Part shown: piece after piece, positions 49,064 to 55,247 of the stretch
How positions within the stretch are numbered: the first letter of the stretch is position 1
Layout: every line of letters starts with the position of its first letter
NCBI GenBank assembly: GCA_002070275.1
Contig: MWCY01000005.1
Coordinates: 1 to 64,000 of the forward strand
DNA: 64,000 bases
Direction of reading: 5' to 3'
Source: Candidatus Hydrogenedentes bacterium ADurb.Bin170
GTDB taxonomy: Bacteria > Hydrogenedentota > Hydrogenedentia > Hydrogenedentales > CAITNO01
Notes under the pieces: generated by a model
The model's input: the letters and a program-made list of their open reading frames with translations, nothing else
Database searches by the model: none
What the model was told of the DNA's origin: nothing
Position numbers and translations under genes: made by a program

Positions 49064-49639
49064 TCACAGCATTATGTCGTCGGGATCCATGGGCTCGGTT
49101 GTGCGCAGGTCCTCAGGAAGCGCATCTGCAGGCCAGCTTTCCATGGGCAAAACAGCAAGCGGATGAAAGGGACAATCAAAACTTGCCAAGCCGCTGCTGC
49201 GGTCGATAAGAACAGCCACTCCGGCAATTTCAGCACCGCGGCGGCGCAAATGATCAATTGTCTTCTTTACTGAACCACCGGTCGTCACAATATCTTCCAC
49301 GACCAGCACCCGTTCGCCTTCTTTGATTTTAAACCCTCTTTTCATCGCCATACCGCCAGCGCCGTCTTTTTCGCTATAGGCGGCACGGCACTTTAAATGC
49401 CGCGCCGTCTCGTAGGCAATGACAATGCCGCCTGTTGCAGGCCCGACGACCAGATCAATGTCTTTATCCTGAAACGCCGCTGCAAGAGCCTGTCCGAAAG
49501 CCTCTCCATATTCAGGATACTGAAAAACACGGGCTGCCTGAAGAAACTGCCGCCCGTGCCGTCCGCTTGCATAAATGAAATGCCCCTCTAAAAGAGCACC
49601 GGATTCTTTAAAAATACGAATGATTTCTTGCGGGTTCAT
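49064..49639 (-). CDS. pyrE: Orotate phosphoribosyltransferase
   Basis: A 191-residue PyrE that converts orotate and PRPP to orotidine 5'-phosphate in pyrimidine synthesis. The PRPP loop is 'RVLVVEDIVTTGGSVKKTI' near residues 112-130, and 'VVGPATGGIVIAYETARHL' is the adjacent active-site region. 'YASGRHGRQFLQ' gives the N-terminal orotate-binding part. It starts within the stop of pyrF (ATGA at 49636-49639), indicating coupling. The exported nucleotidase gene follows. Identification is secure. Confidence 0.95.
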   Translation of the reverse strand: MNPQEIIRIFKESGALLEGHFIYASGRHGRQFLQAARVFQYPEYGEAFGQALAAAFQDKDIDLVVGPATGGIVIAYETARHLKCRAAYSEKDGAGGMAMKRGFKIKEGERVLVVEDIVTTGGSVKKTIDHLRRRGAEIAGVAVLIDRSSGLASFDCPFHPLAVLPMESWPADALPEDLRTTEPMDPDDIML

Positions 49640-50322
49640 GAATTCAGTTCCTCTAAAATTAGTGATACAGCTTCAGAAGGATAAGGATGTTTCAGGATGG
49701 GCCGGCCGACGACCACCATGGAAGCACCTGCCTGCGCCGCTGCTCGGGGCGTCATCACACGCGCCTGATCGTCGCGTGATGCCCATTCGGGGCGGACTCC
49801 AGGCGTCACGATCAATGGCTCTGCACCCAAAACTTCTCTTGTTATGCCCAGTTCCAGAGGGGAGCAGACAATCCCATGGGCACCCGCTTTCACAGCCTGT
49901 GAAGCAAGGCGACGCACGGCTTCTTCCGGTGTCTCCGAAAAACCCACTTCTTCACAAAGAACACTGGCATTTATACTGGTCAGCACTGTTACGGCCAGGA
50001 TTCGTGTCGCCGTACCTTCAACTGCTGTACGTGCTGCTTCGATCATGGCACAACCGCCCGAAGCATGGACAGTGATTAATCCTGCGCCCAGGTCGGCAGC
50101 TGCCCGTGCGGCGTGACCGACCGTATTCGGAATATCATGATATTTCAGATCAAGAAATACATTTTTCCCGAGCTGCTGAACTTCTTTGACTATATCCGGT
50201 CCAAGCCGGGTAAAGAGTTGTGCGCCAATTTTAAACCATTTGCAGTCACCGCAGGCATGCACAGCAGAAAGTGCTTCAGCGCGGCTGTCCATATCAAGAA
50301 CCACAATCAGTTCTGTTGCCAT
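49636..50322 (-). CDS. pyrF: Orotidine 5'-phosphate decarboxylase
   Basis: A 228-residue PyrF that forms UMP by decarboxylating OMP. 'IVVLDMDSRAEALS' begins the barrel, 'VFLDLKYHDIPNTVGHA' is the catalytic D-K-x-x-D segment, and 'IVTPGVRPEWASRDDQARVMTPRAAAQAGASMVVVGRPI' includes the phosphate-binding end; I mention only the start and end. It is coupled to pyrE by a 4-base overlap. GAGGAAA lies before the ATG. It is the first gene of this transcript, following the terminator at 50375-50400. Confidence 0.95.
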   Translation of the reverse strand: MATELIVVLDMDSRAEALSAVHACGDCKWFKIGAQLFTRLGPDIVKEVQQLGKNVFLDLKYHDIPNTVGHAARAAADLGAGLITVHASGGCAMIEAARTAVEGTATRILAVTVLTSINASVLCEEVGFSETPEEAVRRLASQAVKAGAHGIVCSPLELGITREVLGAEPLIVTPGVRPEWASRDDQARVMTPRAAAQAGASMVVVGRPILKHPYPSEAVSLILEELNS

Positions 50323-50370: not shown

Positions 50371-50405
50371 TCAAACTCCGGGACGATCCCATCCCGGAGT
50401 TCATA
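50371..50405 (-). terminator. Terminator between the transketolase operon and pyrF
   Basis: A perfect 9-bp stem, ACTCCGGGA at 50375-50383 with TCCCGGAGT at 50392-50400. On the minus strand the stem is followed by TTGATATTTTCC, a weak U-tract. It lies about 70 bases after the end of the SCP2-like gene and 50 bases before pyrF. Confidence 0.6.
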
Positions 50406-50467: not shown

Positions 50468-51259
50468 TCACGAAAGCAGGTTCGCCACCTTCATCATGAA
50501 ATCGCCCAGCTTTCCTCCATATTCAGGAGAACCGTCACTCAAAACAAGGCCCTGCCCAATAGCGCTTACTGTGTCTATCGTATTTGCCAGAACAGGAAGC
50601 GCAGCATCGACGCTTTTAAAGCTCATGTGCACAAAAGGTTTGCGCCCTGTATGAACGCCACGACCCGCTTTGGTCTTGCCTGCTTTCACCTTCAGATAAC
50701 AGACGATATCTGTACCATCCACACTCCATTGATAAATACGTTCAGGTTGTTTCGCTGTCCAAGCCTGCATGTCCGTATCACCGGCTTTGTTCATCTGGCT
50801 GAGCGCAGTGGAAACCATGTACAAAGTCATCTTTACCTTAAGATGCGCCTGTTCCGCATTTTTGGGCTTTGCTGCAGGCATCAGCAATTTGAGTCCGAAT
50901 AGCACTTTAAAAACGCGTATCACAAGCCCCGGCTTTTTCATCAGAGCAGGAAGCAGCGCGCCCAGACGCGGCAGAACAGGCTTGCCCCTGAACATATCAT
51001 TCATGGCTTTTAATGAGGAAAACGAAAAGAGCACATCCGGATTTTCCGTAAATCCCTGGGTGACTTCAAATTTCCCGCGATCAAAAAGAAGCCAGGCTCC
51101 GGTCTTGCCGTCCGGATCGTCCGCCTCAAACTGCACCGTTCCTGTAACATCGGCAAACCGGTTTTTCATCCGTTCATCATCTTCAAGCATCACCCGGATT
51201 ACGGGAAGAACCGCATTTAAAACAAGTCGGCCGGTCAGCTGTTCTCGAGTAAGTGTCAT
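50468..51259 (-). CDS. SCP2-like protein A, last gene of the aminotransferase-transketolase operon
   Basis: A 263-residue cytoplasmic protein with features of the sterol carrier protein 2 fold. 'TGTVQFEADDPDGKTGAWLLFDRGKFEVTQGF' (described in parts), 'PDVLFSFSSLKAMNDMFRGKPVLPRLG' and a second half with 'HMSFKSVDAALPVLANTIDTVSAIGQGL' follow the two-half SCP2 pattern. SCP2 proteins bind lipids or hydrophobic ligands and shuttle them to enzymes. It is three bases from the transketolase C subunit gene and is the last gene of a five-gene minus-strand unit. Its paralogue at 54405 is the first gene. The ligand is unknown and the SCP2 call is by eye. Confidence 0.6.
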   Translation of the reverse strand: MTLTREQLTGRLVLNAVLPVIRVMLEDDERMKNRFADVTGTVQFEADDPDGKTGAWLLFDRGKFEVTQGFTENPDVLFSFSSLKAMNDMFRGKPVLPRLGALLPALMKKPGLVIRVFKVLFGLKLLMPAAKPKNAEQAHLKVKMTLYMVSTALSQMNKAGDTDMQAWTAKQPERIYQWSVDGTDIVCYLKVKAGKTKAGRGVHTGRKPFVHMSFKSVDAALPVLANTIDTVSAIGQGLVLSDGSPEYGGKLGDFMMKVANLLS

Positions 51260-51262
51260 GAA

Positions 51263-52279
51263 TTACACCTCATCTTCCCAGTCTTCATCTTCTTCAAAAT
51301 CACGCTGCATCAGTTCACCGACTGTTTCAATAATACCGTCCGTATCAATTTTATACATATGCATCAGATCTTCAGGATTGCCGTGGGGGCAGAAGGTATC
51401 AGGCACACCCAGTTTGTTAAAAGCGCAGCCTTTTCCGCTGGCAGCAATCACGTCCGCCACAGCGCTTCCCAACCCTCCAATCACACTGTGATCTTCCACG
51501 GTGAGCAAGCGCCTGGTCTCTACTAGCGCTTTAAGAACAGCATCCTGATCTATCGGTTTCAGGGTGTGCATATTCAATACTCTTACACTGAGTCCGCTGT
51601 TTTTATTCATGATATCAGCCGCCTGAACAGCGTGAAATACAGTATTTCCGGTAGCGATAATAGTGATATCCGTTCCGGATCGCAATTCATGCGCTTTCCC
51701 GATTTCAAAACCGTACTCTTCTGATTCGTAGATGCGTGGTTCAAAACCACGACCGATTCGAATATACACCGGTCCCTGAATGTCCATGCATTTTTTTACT
51801 GCAAGTGCTGTTTCTATCGTATCCGCCGGAGCAACCACGGTCAGGTTCGGGAAGGCGCGGATAATGGATAAATCCTCGTTGGCATGATGCGTGGAGCCTC
51901 CCGAGCCGAAAGACATGCCGCCATGGGTAGCTATAATTTTTACATTCAGGTTCTGGTAACAGATGTCCGTGCGCACAAATTCACAGGCACGCATGGATGC
52001 GAAAGCGGACATGGTGGACACAAAAGGAATAAGCCCGGCTTTGGCAAGCCCGGCCGCTGCTCCGAACATATTTTGTTCGGCAATTCCGAAATTAAAAAAA
52101 CGGTCGGGATAGGCATCACCGAATGTACCGATTTTGGTGGATTTGGCAAGATCCGCCGACAGACCGACGATCTTCGGATGCTGCCTGCCCAGATCTGTAA
52201 GCACCAGCCCGTAGATTTCCCGCTGCGTCATTTTATCCGCATCATAGATTGTCCAAGTCAGAGTGCTGGCTGTTTCCAT
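51263..52279 (-). CDS. Transketolase C-terminal (pyrimidine-binding/transketolase_C) subunit
   Basis: A 338-residue subunit with the transketolase pyrimidine-binding domain and the C-terminal domain. 'TQREIYGLVLTDLGRQHP', 'FNFGIAEQNMFGAAAGLAKAG', 'GMSFGSGGSTHHANEDLSIIRAFPNL' and the final 'LTVEDHSVIGGLGSAVADVIA' are family features. It works with the N-terminal subunit encoded four bases upstream to form a complete transketolase, which transfers two-carbon ketol units using thiamine diphosphate. Split transketolases are common in anaerobes and archaea. It lies inside an operon with an aminotransferase and SCP2-like genes, which suggests a dedicated role besides the pentose phosphate pathway. 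Confidence 0.9.
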   Translation of the reverse strand: METASTLTWTIYDADKMTQREIYGLVLTDLGRQHPKIVGLSADLAKSTKIGTFGDAYPDRFFNFGIAEQNMFGAAAGLAKAGLIPFVSTMSAFASMRACEFVRTDICYQNLNVKIIATHGGMSFGSGGSTHHANEDLSIIRAFPNLTVVAPADTIETALAVKKCMDIQGPVYIRIGRGFEPRIYESEEYGFEIGKAHELRSGTDITIIATGNTVFHAVQAADIMNKNSGLSVRVLNMHTLKPIDQDAVLKALVETRRLLTVEDHSVIGGLGSAVADVIAASGKGCAFNKLGVPDTFCPHGNPEDLMHMYKIDTDGIIETVGELMQRDFEEDEDWEDEV

Positions 52280-52283
52280 ACTT

Positions 52284-53117
52284 TTATCCTTTGTTTTCTA
52301 TCGACGCTTTGGCTTTGGCGATCTGTTCTGCATTTAATCCGCCATAGTGCCACTCCGGTTTCCCTTCCATAAATTCCACGCCTTTGCCTTTGATCGTATC
52401 GCAGACCAGCATGACAGGGGAACCCTTGTGCGCAATGGCAAATTCAAACGCTTCCGCCAGTGCCGGCAAATCATGACCATTCACTTCCCGGGTTTCAAAA
52501 CCGAAAGCACGCCATTTATCCGGAAGCGGCTCCAGGCTCATTACTTCTTCGGTAGGCCCGTCAATCATCAGGTGATTTCTATCCTGAATAACAATCAGGT
52601 TATCCAGTTTGTAATGGGCGGCTGCCATGGCGGCTTCCCAGATGGAACCTTCGTTGCTCTCTCCGTCGCCGATCATGCAGAAGACACGCCACTCTTTCTT
52701 CAGCACGCGAGCGCCCAAAGCCATACCAACAGCCTGTGACAAACCATGCCCCATGGAGCCGGTGGAAGCATCGCAGCCGGGCACTTTATTGCTGTCCAGA
52801 TGCATGCCCAGCATTGATCCTGTTTCGTTGAACTCGTGCAGCGCTGCTTTATCAAAATATCCGCGCTCGGCAAGGACAACAGCATGCCCTACGCCGCCAT
52901 GCCCTTTGCTCAGCACAAAACGATCCCGATCTTCCCAGGCAGGGTTGGCAGGATCTATGCGAAGATACTTCCAGTACAACAGCGTTAGAATATCCACCAT
53001 ACTTAAGGACCCGCCAATATGCGCACCACCGGACCATCCGGTCACATCGGCAATCTGGCAGCGAATCGATGCTGCACGCTCTTTCAGCGTGGCTAATTCC
53101 TGTTCCGTCAAGGACAT
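52284..53117 (-). CDS. Transketolase N-terminal (TPP-binding) subunit
   Basis: A 277-residue subunit holding the thiamine-diphosphate-binding domain. 'GGAHIGGSLSMVDILTLLYW', 'LSKGHGGVGHAVVLA', 'GSMGHGLSQAVGMALG' and the TPP motif 'MIGDGESNEGSIWEAAM...QDRN' are clear. It needs the C subunit to be active. The open frame starts at 53123, where an ATG overlaps the ribosome site AAGGA; the ATG at 53117 is seven bases from AAGGA and is the likelier start. The aminotransferase gene lies 15 to 21 bases upstream on the same strand. The pairing with a class III aminotransferase is unusual. Confidence 0.9.
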   Translation of the reverse strand: MSLTEQELATLKERAASIRCQIADVTGWSGGAHIGGSLSMVDILTLLYWKYLRIDPANPAWEDRDRFVLSKGHGGVGHAVVLAERGYFDKAALHEFNETGSMLGMHLDSNKVPGCDASTGSMGHGLSQAVGMALGARVLKKEWRVFCMIGDGESNEGSIWEAAMAAAHYKLDNLIVIQDRNHLMIDGPTEEVMSLEPLPDKWRAFGFETREVNGHDLPALAEAFEFAIAHKGSPVMLVCDTIKGKGVEFMEGKPEWHYGGLNAEQIAKAKASIENKG

Positions 53118-53138
53118 AATCATTTCCTTTTCGTTAAT

Positions 53139-54383
53139 TTAATGACCAAACTCGCTTTTTATCACTTTAAAGGCATCGTCAGCTATTTGAAGTGTTTTTT
53201 CTATATCCCCGTCCGTGTGCGCGGTGGATAAAAACCAGTTGTGATGCGAGGTAAAGAATGCTCCCCGACGGGTACATTCTCCACACCAGGCCTGCTGCAG
53301 CATCAGTGTGTCATCATCCGCGAGACGAAGATAAGGCATGGCGGGTTCGCCGGATACGACCAGAGTGTAGCCATGGCCGGCTGCCACATCACGAAGCCCG
53401 GAGGTAAGCTTTTCGCCAAGCACCCGCATCCGCTCCGGTCCCTTTTCTGCCTTGAGGGTAGTAAGGCAGGCTATAGCGGCGGCAAAAGACCCGGCACAAT
53501 ACCAGAAACTGCCCGTATGGAACACTTTTGCGGCATCAAGACGGAGCGCATCTGTGCCCACCAGTGCGGACAACGCATAGCCGTTGGCGATAGCTTTGGA
53601 AAAAGCAATCATATCTGGCTTAAAACCATAGTGCTCATTGGAGCCGCCCAAATGCAGCCTGAAGCCGGCGCGAACGTCATCAACAATGACAACGCTGCCG
53701 TTTTTGTGCAGCTTATCTATCGCAGCCTGCCAATAGCCTTCGGCAGGCAGGACGTTGTCTTCAAAAATGGGATGATGATAGGGGCTTGCCATAAAAGCAG
53801 CAACCTGAGATCCATGCTCGGCGAGCACCTGGTCCAGAGCATTCAGATCATTCCAGGGAATGCGGATTACATGCTGGTGGTCATCGGCAATGGTGCCATG
53901 GTGCCCGGGCGCCTGCATCCAGGGACTTGTACCGTGATAGCCTCCCTTAATGGCAATGACTTTATCACGGCCTGTAGCTGCTCTTGCCACCATAACAGCC
54001 AGGTTGGTGACATCAGCTCCATTTCGGGCAAAAAAAGCCCACTCGGCGACGGGAACAAGATCGCAGAGAAGTTCAGCAAGTTCCACCATCCGCGGAGACG
54101 CAACGCTGTTTGCATCAGAAAGACTGTGCTGCTCCTGAAAGGCGGCTTCCACGGCAGGGTGATTGTAGCCTAGAACCATGGGACCGTAGGCACACATATA
54201 GTCAATAAATTCGTTGCCGTCCACATCCCAGAAACGGGCGGCATCAGCCTTATTGGAAAAAAAAGGGTAGGCTTCCACAGGAGCATAGGGAGCAGGGCTG
54301 AAATGACCGTAAACGCCGCATGGGATTACTTTTACAGCTCTATCAAACCACTTATTTGATTCTTCGTAACGGTAAATGTTCAC
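53139..54383 (-). CDS. Class III aminotransferase, glutamate-1-semialdehyde aminomutase-like
   Basis: A 414-residue PLP enzyme of the GSA aminomutase branch of class III aminotransferases. 'DVDGNEFIDYMCAYGPMVLGYNHP', 'FFARNGADVTNLAVMVARAATGRDKV', 'KGGYHGT', 'VIVDDVRAGFR' and the PLP lysine in 'AFSKAIANGYALSALVG' are family features. True HemL has 'GxYHG' and a different C-terminus, and here the enzyme is in an operon with a transketolase, so a role in an amino sugar or amino keto compound is more likely than in haem synthesis. The GTG start has AGGAG eight bases upstream. The SCP2-like gene ends 21 bases upstream. Substrate unknown. Confidence 0.85.
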   Translation of the reverse strand: MNIYRYEESNKWFDRAVKVIPCGVYGHFSPAPYAPVEAYPFFSNKADAARFWDVDGNEFIDYMCAYGPMVLGYNHPAVEAAFQEQHSLSDANSVASPRMVELAELLCDLVPVAEWAFFARNGADVTNLAVMVARAATGRDKVIAIKGGYHGTSPWMQAPGHHGTIADDHQHVIRIPWNDLNALDQVLAEHGSQVAAFMASPYHHPIFEDNVLPAEGYWQAAIDKLHKNGSVVIVDDVRAGFRLHLGGSNEHYGFKPDMIAFSKAIANGYALSALVGTDALRLDAAKVFHTGSFWYCAGSFAAAIACLTTLKAEKGPERMRVLGEKLTSGLRDVAAGHGYTLVVSGEPAMPYLRLADDDTLMLQQAWCGECTRRGAFFTSHHNWFLSTAHTDGDIEKTLQIADDAFKVIKSEFGH

Positions 54384-54404
54384 TGTCTTGTCTCCTGGAG
54401 CGAA

Positions 54405-55166
54405 CTACTGCAAATATTTTGGAATTTGATCAAGAATGACGTTGGTATGATCGATCAGAGGAATTTTGCCCCTTAATTGAATATCGCCTTTGGCAACGGC
54501 GCCGAAACTGTCCAGCGTGCCGTCAACAAGTAACTGGGCAATTTCGGGGTTTCGAAAAGTAAGGAGGGCTTCCGGACGGGCAGCTTTGCCTGTAAACGCT
54601 TTTGCTCCGCCCTTACCGTCATAAATCACATAAGCATAAGGCCCTTCGGGCAATACCGACAACTGCAGAGTGCCGGCAGACAGTTGCGGGGCAATGCGCC
54701 GGGAAACAGGATCCAACTGAAGCAATTCCGGTATGGCAAATACCGCTGTACTTAGTGCCAGGGATAAATTGATCATTTTATGGCGGTCATCCTGAACTAC
54801 ATCGCTGGGGGGCTTCAGGAAATATTCAAGCCTGCTGGTAAGCTTCGAAAATTCAGTTTTTAAAAAGCCCAGCCTGGTAAAGCCGGAGAGAGGCAGGGGA
54901 GAGGCGTTATTCTCCATCATATTGTTCAAATGAGCAGCAGAGCAGAAAAAGAGGCTAACCGTTCCTTTTTCTATTGTATCGGCTAAAAAAGTGCAACGTC
55001 CGTTATGAAAATTTAAAAGGATATTGGTATCGCGCCAAATAGATAAACGGATGGAAATTTCCCAGTCTTTGATCAGCTCCCGACTCAGGTCGTCTATTTC
55101 CGGAAGCAGCTCCACGTTTCTTAATACTGCTTTAAGATTGAGTCGCGCTTTCAGCTGATCAATCAT
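54405..55166 (-). CDS. SCP2-like protein B, first gene of the aminotransferase-transketolase operon
   Basis: A 253-residue cytoplasmic protein with SCP2-like features, notably in the second half: 'YAYVIYDGKGGAKAFTGKA', 'PEALLTFRNPEIAQLLVDGTLDSFGAVAKGDIQLRG' (in pieces). The first half has 'SLFFCSAAHLNNMMENN', matching the position of 'FSFSSLKAMNDMF' in protein A, so the two are distant paralogues. The open frame continues to 55247, but a promoter overlaps that part (55219-55247), and AGGAAGGAG is seven bases before the ATG at 55166, which is the start used. It is the first gene of the five-gene operon. The ligand is unknown. Confidence 0.6.
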   Translation of the reverse strand: MIDQLKARLNLKAVLRNVELLPEIDDLSRELIKDWEISIRLSIWRDTNILLNFHNGRCTFLADTIEKGTVSLFFCSAAHLNNMMENNASPLPLSGFTRLGFLKTEFSKLTSRLEYFLKPPSDVVQDDRHKMINLSLALSTAVFAIPELLQLDPVSRRIAPQLSAGTLQLSVLPEGPYAYVIYDGKGGAKAFTGKAARPEALLTFRNPEIAQLLVDGTLDSFGAVAKGDIQLRGKIPLIDHTNVILDQIPKYLQ

Positions 55167-55218
55167 TCTCATACTCCTTCCTGAAAACCATCTATCTTTG
55201 TGTCGGTTGAGAGATTCA

Positions 55219-55247
55219 AGAGTACCATAATCACATACAAAGTGCAA
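55219..55247 (-). promoter_or_regulatory. Promoter of the SCP2-aminotransferase-transketolase operon
   Basis: On the minus strand TTGCAC (55247-55242) and TACTCT (55224-55219) are exactly 17 bp apart, and TGG precedes the -10, giving an extended -10. Transcription would start near 55212, about 45 bases before the ATG at 55166. It is divergent from the xylulokinase promoter. Confidence 0.65.

Follow-up and report, generated by a model that had tools for sequence, protein, structure and literature searches.

A conserved five-gene operon joining tandem-SCP2 proteins, a FumI-type aminotransferase and a split transketolase: a possible pathway for sphingoid-type long-chain bases

The first 64,000 nucleotides of contig MWCY01000005.1 of Candidatus Hydrogenedentes bacterium ADurb.Bin170 (this whole stretch is called the window; the genome is a 3.5-Mb assembly and 96% complete) contain an operon of five open reading frames on the minus strand, at positions 55172-50468. 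In this sequence they encode an SCP2-like protein (SCP2b), a class III aminotransferase (AT), the N-terminal and C-terminal subunits of a split transketolase (TKN and TKC) and a second SCP2-like protein (SCP2a). The five genes form a cassette that is conserved across phyla, and the transketolase has exchanged the residues of its acceptor pocket. We tentatively favour the view that the operon encodes a non-phosphorylative pathway in the cytosol that acts on sphingoid-type long-chain bases and is run mainly in the degradative direction, although we stop somewhat short of calling this probable. Its substrate, its direction and the carrier role of the SCP2-like proteins are what we infer from the evidence below, and the molecule handled is likely to be a long-chain base of the 2-amino-3-hydroxy (sphingoid) type. 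The features of the locus are as follows.

54405-55172, minus strand: SCP2b (P0001), 255 aa; two tandem SCP2 folds, on the basis of AlphaFold2, Foldseek and hhalign
53139-54383, minus strand: class III aminotransferase (AT) of the FumI type, 414 aa; catalytic Lys in FSKAIANGY; PF00202
52284-53123, minus strand: N-terminal transketolase subunit (TKN), ThDP-binding, 279 aa; PF00456
51263-52279, minus strand: C-terminal transketolase subunit (TKC) with Pyr and C domains, 338 aa; PF02779 and PF02780
50468-51259, minus strand: SCP2a (P0005), 263 aa; two tandem SCP2 folds; PF02036 at 2.4e-6
50372-50403, minus strand: terminator-like hairpin of 14 pairs past the last gene

The gaps between the genes measure 21, 15, 4 and 3 bp, so that the strand, order and close spacing (3 to 21 bases) described in the first-pass annotation were all confirmed. 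Pfam recognised AT as Aminotran_3 (2.5e-35), TKN as Transketolase_N (1.3e-45) and TKC as Transket_pyr plus Transketolase_C.

When AT was used as a search query, 80 loci were found. By genome name they belong to Hydrogenedentota, Verrucomicrobia, Nitrospiraceae, Myxococcota, Spirochaetota, Desulfobacterota, Bacteroidota, Chlorobiota, Bacillota and a few Actinobacteria, and some names of metagenome-assembled genomes (MAGs) may be wrong. The loci closest to the operon of the window came from MAGs of Candidatus Hydrogenedens and Candidatus Hydrogenedentota. All five genes were complete at 51 of the 80 loci, many of the remaining ones being cut by contig ends. Every one of the 51 complete loci, which range from Hydrogenedentota (the phylum of the window) to Spirochaetota, Desulfobacterota, Bacteroidota, Myxococcota and Bacillota, showed the order SCP2b-AT-TKN-TKC-SCP2a on a single strand, and the median gaps were 38, 43, 16 and 4 bp; the cluster is therefore far beyond chance. 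Whether the order would be random in other genomes had been left for a search to decide, and it proved identical in many phyla. Among the five proteins the pairwise distances are correlated (r 0.66-0.84), which fits a cassette that is passed on as a unit. In 20 relatives without this AT this transketolase was absent too, the best matches being DXS-like or other thiamine enzymes with no more than 155 bits. The operon is also carried by the cultured Desulfatibacillum alkenivorans, Desulfosarcina widdelii, Desulfoluna and Draconibacterium aestuarii and is hence directly testable.

Two departures from the full cassette were seen. Frankia, Gordonia and Glaciihabitans (L103, L104, L108) had only the SCP2b-AT pair within reach of the locus, and in Frankia and Gordonia a nearby protein showed a weak membrane-dipeptidase (M19) match. 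In Desulfococcus sp. 4484_241 (L058:9242-9652) the start of TKN was fused directly to the end of SCP2a, which might reflect a deletion in the middle of the operon or a misassembly.

The residues of the transketolase were compared in 59 operon members, using the numbering of the Escherichia coli enzyme. For TKN as well as TKC the nearest solved relative is the split transketolase of Carboxydothermus hydrogenoformans (6yak), which likewise consists of two subunits without a linker and has all catalytic residues (6YAJ/6YAK). Equivalents of H26, H66, H100, D155, E160, N185, E411 and H473 were present in 59/59 members and the WH motif at H261 in 58/59; with the exception of the variable I187 position, every residue tested for thiamine, metal or catalysis was kept. 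At the phosphate site the equivalents of S385, H461 and R520 are found in all 59, while R358 is present in 16 (including the protein of the window) and is mostly Ala elsewhere. Because S385, H461 and R520 are kept, the other substrate may be a sugar phosphate.

The residues lining the acceptor side have changed in concert. Asp469, by which the alpha-hydroxyl of sugar acceptors is contacted, is never Asp in the operon family (Ala in 55, Gly in 4). Arg91 is replaced by Asn in 58 members, Gly99 by Met and Leu466 by Phe in all 59, Pro101 by Leu in 53 and Tyr440 by Met or Leu in 57. With Met99, Leu101, Met/Leu440 and Phe466 the acceptor pocket is, as judged from these residues, apolar. Asp469 was kept in all controls: TktA of E. 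coli, the transketolase of C. hydrogenoformans, and 19 DXS-type homologues, which came from relatives and from the genome of the window. The C. hydrogenoformans transketolase also differs in retaining the Arg91 equivalent and Gly99/Pro101, where the operon family has Asn, Met and Leu. The salt bridge between Asp469 and Arg91 that is documented in E. coli transketolase (PMC5073344) has thus been lost on both sides. A change of Asp469 was part of the engineering of this enzyme towards non-polar aliphatic and aromatic aldehydes (PMC5073344); the operon family shows a comparable change in nature, extending to both partners of one salt bridge. An ordinary pentose-phosphate transketolase was rejected on the acceptor-pocket residues, and a DXS-like or pyruvate dehydrogenase-like function on the rank of the hidden Markov model matches together with the residue controls.

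Split transketolases exist in other organisms (PMC7661550), and one might suppose that TKN and TKC form a housekeeping enzyme that lies beside an unrelated aminotransferase. We consider this hardly credible, in view of the constant gene order across phyla, the concerted changes in the pocket and the fact that the same genome encodes further thiamine enzymes with Transketolase_C domains at other places. A separate observation concerns the C-terminal tail of TKC (window 51263-51320), which is acidic and conserved (fE.d..WeDEv) and is perhaps a docking tail for another subunit.

AT had first been described as resembling GSA aminomutase. Its best match among solved structures was instead FumI (6hbs, aminopentol aminotransferase; E=6e-91), with GSA aminomutase next at 6e-46, and its identity was 40% to the former and 31% to the latter. 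Out of 132 columns conserved in the operon AT family 96 are common to FumI but only 68 to GSA. A function as GSA aminomutase (HemL) was rejected, since the TIGR00713 score was 201 bits against a curated cut-off of 527. FumI of Sphingopyxis (6HBS) shares with AT the class III fold and motifs such as IDYMCAYGP, DDVRAGFR, TGSFW and HN.FLS.AHT; it differs in its role, which is the detoxification of a mycotoxin in fumonisin degradation, and we know of no transketolase or SCP2 partner of FumI. Enzymes of the FumI type strip the C2 amino group off hydrolysed fumonisin, a compound structurally similar to sphinganine, and pyruvate has been shown to work with one of them (PMC9858248). By analogy, AT would deaminate a 2-amino-3-hydroxy long-chain base with pyruvate. 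The named fumonisin transaminases are about 62-74% identical to each other (PMC9858248), and the identity between AT and FumI is far below this range.

The SCP2 fold that had been proposed for the first and last proteins was borne out for both by structure prediction, although Pfam recognised SCP2a only and gave no match for SCP2b. The AlphaFold2 models had a pLDDT of 95.9 (SCP2b, 65 sequences) and 94.4 (SCP2a, 54 sequences), and each contained the same alpha/beta unit twice. In Foldseek both proteins matched UbiJ, the human SCP2-like protein and SCP2-containing alkylsulfatases with a probability of 1.00. SCP2b reached the same value with solved SCP2 structures including 3bn8, 1ikt and UbiJ, and matched as well a mosquito SCP2 with a bound C16 fatty acid. 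SCP2a and SCP2b are homologues of each other along their full length (hhalign 6e-28). From the fold we infer that they carry lipid. UbiJ and other SCP2 carriers have the same fold and, like the operon proteins, probably present a hydrophobic substrate to soluble enzymes; the operon differs from them in that it encodes a pair of paralogous proteins, each built of two SCP2 units in tandem.

The degradative pathway that we favour would begin with a 2-amino-1,3-diol, sphinganine for example, from which AT would shift the 2-amino group onto pyruvate; this would yield a 1,3-dihydroxy-2-ketone and alanine. Such a ketodiol suits a transketolase because the 1,3-dihydroxy-2-ketone is exactly the head group that transketolase cleaves. 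The split enzyme would cut between C2 and C3, hold the ketol on thiamine diphosphate and free a fatty aldehyde; the ketol would then be passed to a sugar phosphate, e.g. glyceraldehyde-3-phosphate, to give xylulose-5-phosphate. For sphinganine, pyruvate would thus be converted to alanine as the ketodiol forms, and the ketodiol plus glyceraldehyde-3-phosphate would give hexadecanal plus xylulose-5-phosphate. At some loci only, genes for a third step are present: alanine dehydrogenase would return alanine to pyruvate and an aldehyde dehydrogenase would oxidise the fatty aldehyde. The tandem-SCP2 proteins would keep the long chain soluble and hand it to the enzymes.

Alanine dehydrogenase and class-3 aldehyde dehydrogenase are the only two enzyme families that clearly recur beside the cassette across taxa. 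Alanine dehydrogenase lies directly upstream on the same strand, at a distance of 33-45 bp, in three loci (L058, L069, L073) and close to the operon in three more (L056, L063, L075). Two apparent alanine dehydrogenases (L054, L055) had an identity of about 29% and resembled transhydrogenase subunits; they were left out of this count. The class-3 aldehyde dehydrogenase adjoins the operon in L065, L093, L095 and L102 and resembles human fatty aldehyde dehydrogenase 4qgk (7e-121). Regulators near the cassette were of the TetR type in 17 loci and cAMP-receptor-like in six. No N-acyltransferase, acyl- or aldehyde-forming reductase, glycosyltransferase or nucleotide-sugar enzyme recurred at the loci, nor did hopanoid or isoprenoid genes, ceramidase, lipid kinase or lipid lyase. 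The alanine dehydrogenase and class-3 (fatty) aldehyde dehydrogenase neighbours point to breakdown more than to building. Breakdown is favoured because of the aldehyde dehydrogenases, the degradative role of FumI, the TetR control and the fact that deamination to alanine is usually downhill.

Several observations weigh against a degradation of sphingoid bases. H26, a residue of stereocontrol, is unchanged in the operon family, and canonical transketolase yields 3S alcohols. Natural sphinganine is 2S,3R (PMC6148460), and the mismatch between 3S and 3R would require a threo base, an inverted selectivity or another substrate. The known substrate of FumI is without a C1 hydroxyl. Most loci, including that of the window, lack both an adjacent alanine dehydrogenase and an adjacent aldehyde dehydrogenase, and alanine dehydrogenase could serve either direction. 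The absence of a recurring ceramidase belongs here as well. Finally, only one acyl-CoA dehydrogenase match each was found in the genome of the window and in a close relative (G060), and none in two Bacillota (G076, G077); full fatty-acid oxidation is therefore not general among operon genomes.

The same enzymes might also run in reverse. In such a scheme the transketolase would join the ketol of xylulose-5-phosphate to a fatty aldehyde, and AT with alanine would aminate the ketodiol to a 2-amino-1,3-diol, so that sphingoid-type bases would be made de novo from fatty aldehyde and sugar phosphate without serine palmitoyltransferase. We regard this as unlikely, though it deserves serious attention. 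Both reactions are reversible, and a cascade of transketolase and transaminase leading to 2-amino-1,3-diols is in use in vitro. A xylulokinase-family gene, whose product would be a donor for the transketolase, is a neighbour of the operon in the window and in two close relatives (L033, L034). Moreover, no alpha-oxoamine synthase scored above about 25 bits in the genome of the window and six other operon genomes, with a model that was positive in 13 of 14 control genomes; these seven genomes therefore have no serine palmitoyltransferase. Among the seven are the genome of the window, G060, G076 and G077, whose single or absent acyl-CoA dehydrogenase matches also count on the side of synthesis. 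Novel sphingolipids are abundant in anoxic water, where they have been tied to Desulfobacterota and Bacteroidota (PMC11334938). On the other hand, neither an aldehyde-forming reductase nor an N-acyltransferase recurs at the loci, and the neighbouring aldehyde dehydrogenase would oxidise the aldehyde rather than supply it. Amination by alanine is usually uphill. At least one operon genome (G071, Spirochaetota) has a serine palmitoyltransferase-like protein, at 506 bits and thus below the model cut-off of 640. The overlap between the operon and serine palmitoyltransferase-like genes is mixed among genomes and so favours neither direction.

The same chemistry might serve a different hydrophobic amine or ketol; 1-deoxy bases, capnine-type sulfono bases, amino-hopanoids and isoprenoid amines are examples. 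This we find rather improbable. The substrate of FumI is a 1-deoxy-type base, SCP2 folds bind many lipids, and 1-deoxy sphingolipids are abundant in euxinic waters (PMC11334938). In an operon-bearing genome of the Bacteroidota, Carboxylicivirga (L127), one protein had at first appeared as a serine-palmitoyltransferase-like match but proved nearer to cysteate-C-fatty acyltransferase, the enzyme of sulfonolipid bases, of which it is a close relative. However, H100, which contacts the C1 hydroxyl of the donor, is invariant and favours a C1-hydroxylated substrate, and hopanoid or isoprenoid genes are not among the recurring neighbours.

The first-pass annotation had suggested a dedicated pathway that builds an amino-keto or amino-sugar group on a hydrophobic acceptor. 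Its general part, a dedicated transfer of C2 ketol and amino groups on a hydrophobic molecule, has good support from the gene order, the SCP2 folds, the apolar pocket and the FumI-like AT. An amino-sugar or amino-keto head group made on a lipid acceptor is, however, very improbable. Lipid-binding proteins do stand alongside amino- and ketol-transfer enzymes, and sugar genes are found near the operon in the window, but these sugar genes are not conserved at most other loci, glycosyltransferases and nucleotide-sugar enzymes do not recur, and the transketolase is without a polar contact for a sugar-like acceptor. A sphingoid-type base is the likelier substrate, and the neighbours favour its breakdown over its building.

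The enzymes of the operon are all members of known families; taken as a whole, however, the pathway matched no known kind that we could find, in either direction. Open-access literature (the search covered neither subscription papers nor preprints) held no relevant description of the gene combination or the pathway. According to a 2018 review, serine palmitoyltransferase stands at one end and sphingosine-1-phosphate lyase at the other end of sphingolipid metabolism in every organism that has been studied (PMC6148460). The lyase pathway resembles the proposed one in cleaving a sphingoid base between C2 and C3 to a fatty aldehyde (PMC6148460). It differs in that it uses phosphorylation by a kinase and a pyridoxal phosphate (PLP) lyase and gives phosphoethanolamine, where the operon would use transamination and thiamine chemistry with no homologous enzyme. 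In the lyase pathway the fatty aldehyde is then oxidised by fatty aldehyde dehydrogenase. Neither the five genes nor the recurring neighbours include a lipid kinase or lyase; as for the serine palmitoyltransferase route, the genome of the window gave no alpha-oxoamine synthase match. The sphBCD system of Pseudomonas likewise acts in bacterial sphingoid-base metabolism with a product that is still unknown, but it consists of a periplasmic oxidoreductase, a cytochrome c and a PLP aldolase, none of which resembles the operon (PMC11893366). A polyketide-synthase route to sphinganines still needs an alpha-oxoamine synthase (PMC12134224). The gene set of the operon is shared by none of these routes (lyase, sphBCD or polyketide synthase).

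If the operon does act on sphingoid bases, its route of transamination and retro-transketolase cleavage would bypass one or both canonical ends of sphingolipid metabolism and would be a natural counterpart of the engineered transketolase-transaminase cascade. Sphingolipids are abundant in anoxic sediments and waters, and the operon would open the fate of sphingoid bases there to genetic study. It would also provide ready-made enzymes for 2-amino-1,3-diol chemistry. Should synthesis be the true direction, the operon would be an exception to the rule that an alpha-oxoamine synthase opens the known sphingolipid pathways, and the stereochemistry of its products might be threo.

The ends of the operon are less clear-cut than its genes. 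SCP2b most likely starts at the ATG at 55172 or 55166 rather than at 55247; a TTG start at the latter position is unlikely because the family alignment begins near 55172. A promoter had been placed at 55219-55247, where a consensus scan found none. The terminator proposed at 50375-50400 fared better in part: a hairpin does exist there (14 pairs, 50403-50372), though with a weak U-tract and a shuffle z-score of only -1.5.

Some further genes were noted around the cassette and in its hosts. A protein of the VOC/glyoxalase family lies 4-198 bp downstream of SCP2a in L090, L091, L094 and L097. The neutral ceramidase model (Ceramidase_alk) matched the genome of the window (G000), which gave no alpha-oxoamine synthase match, at ten places (L114-L121 plus two others). 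Most of these matches are weak and partial, covering the N-terminal part, and we do not count them as evidence. On the same strand and 3' of the operon, pyrF- and pyrE-like genes occupy positions 49064-50322 of the window, and pyrF/pyrE-related genes are also found downstream of the operon in L033, L035, L037 and L087.

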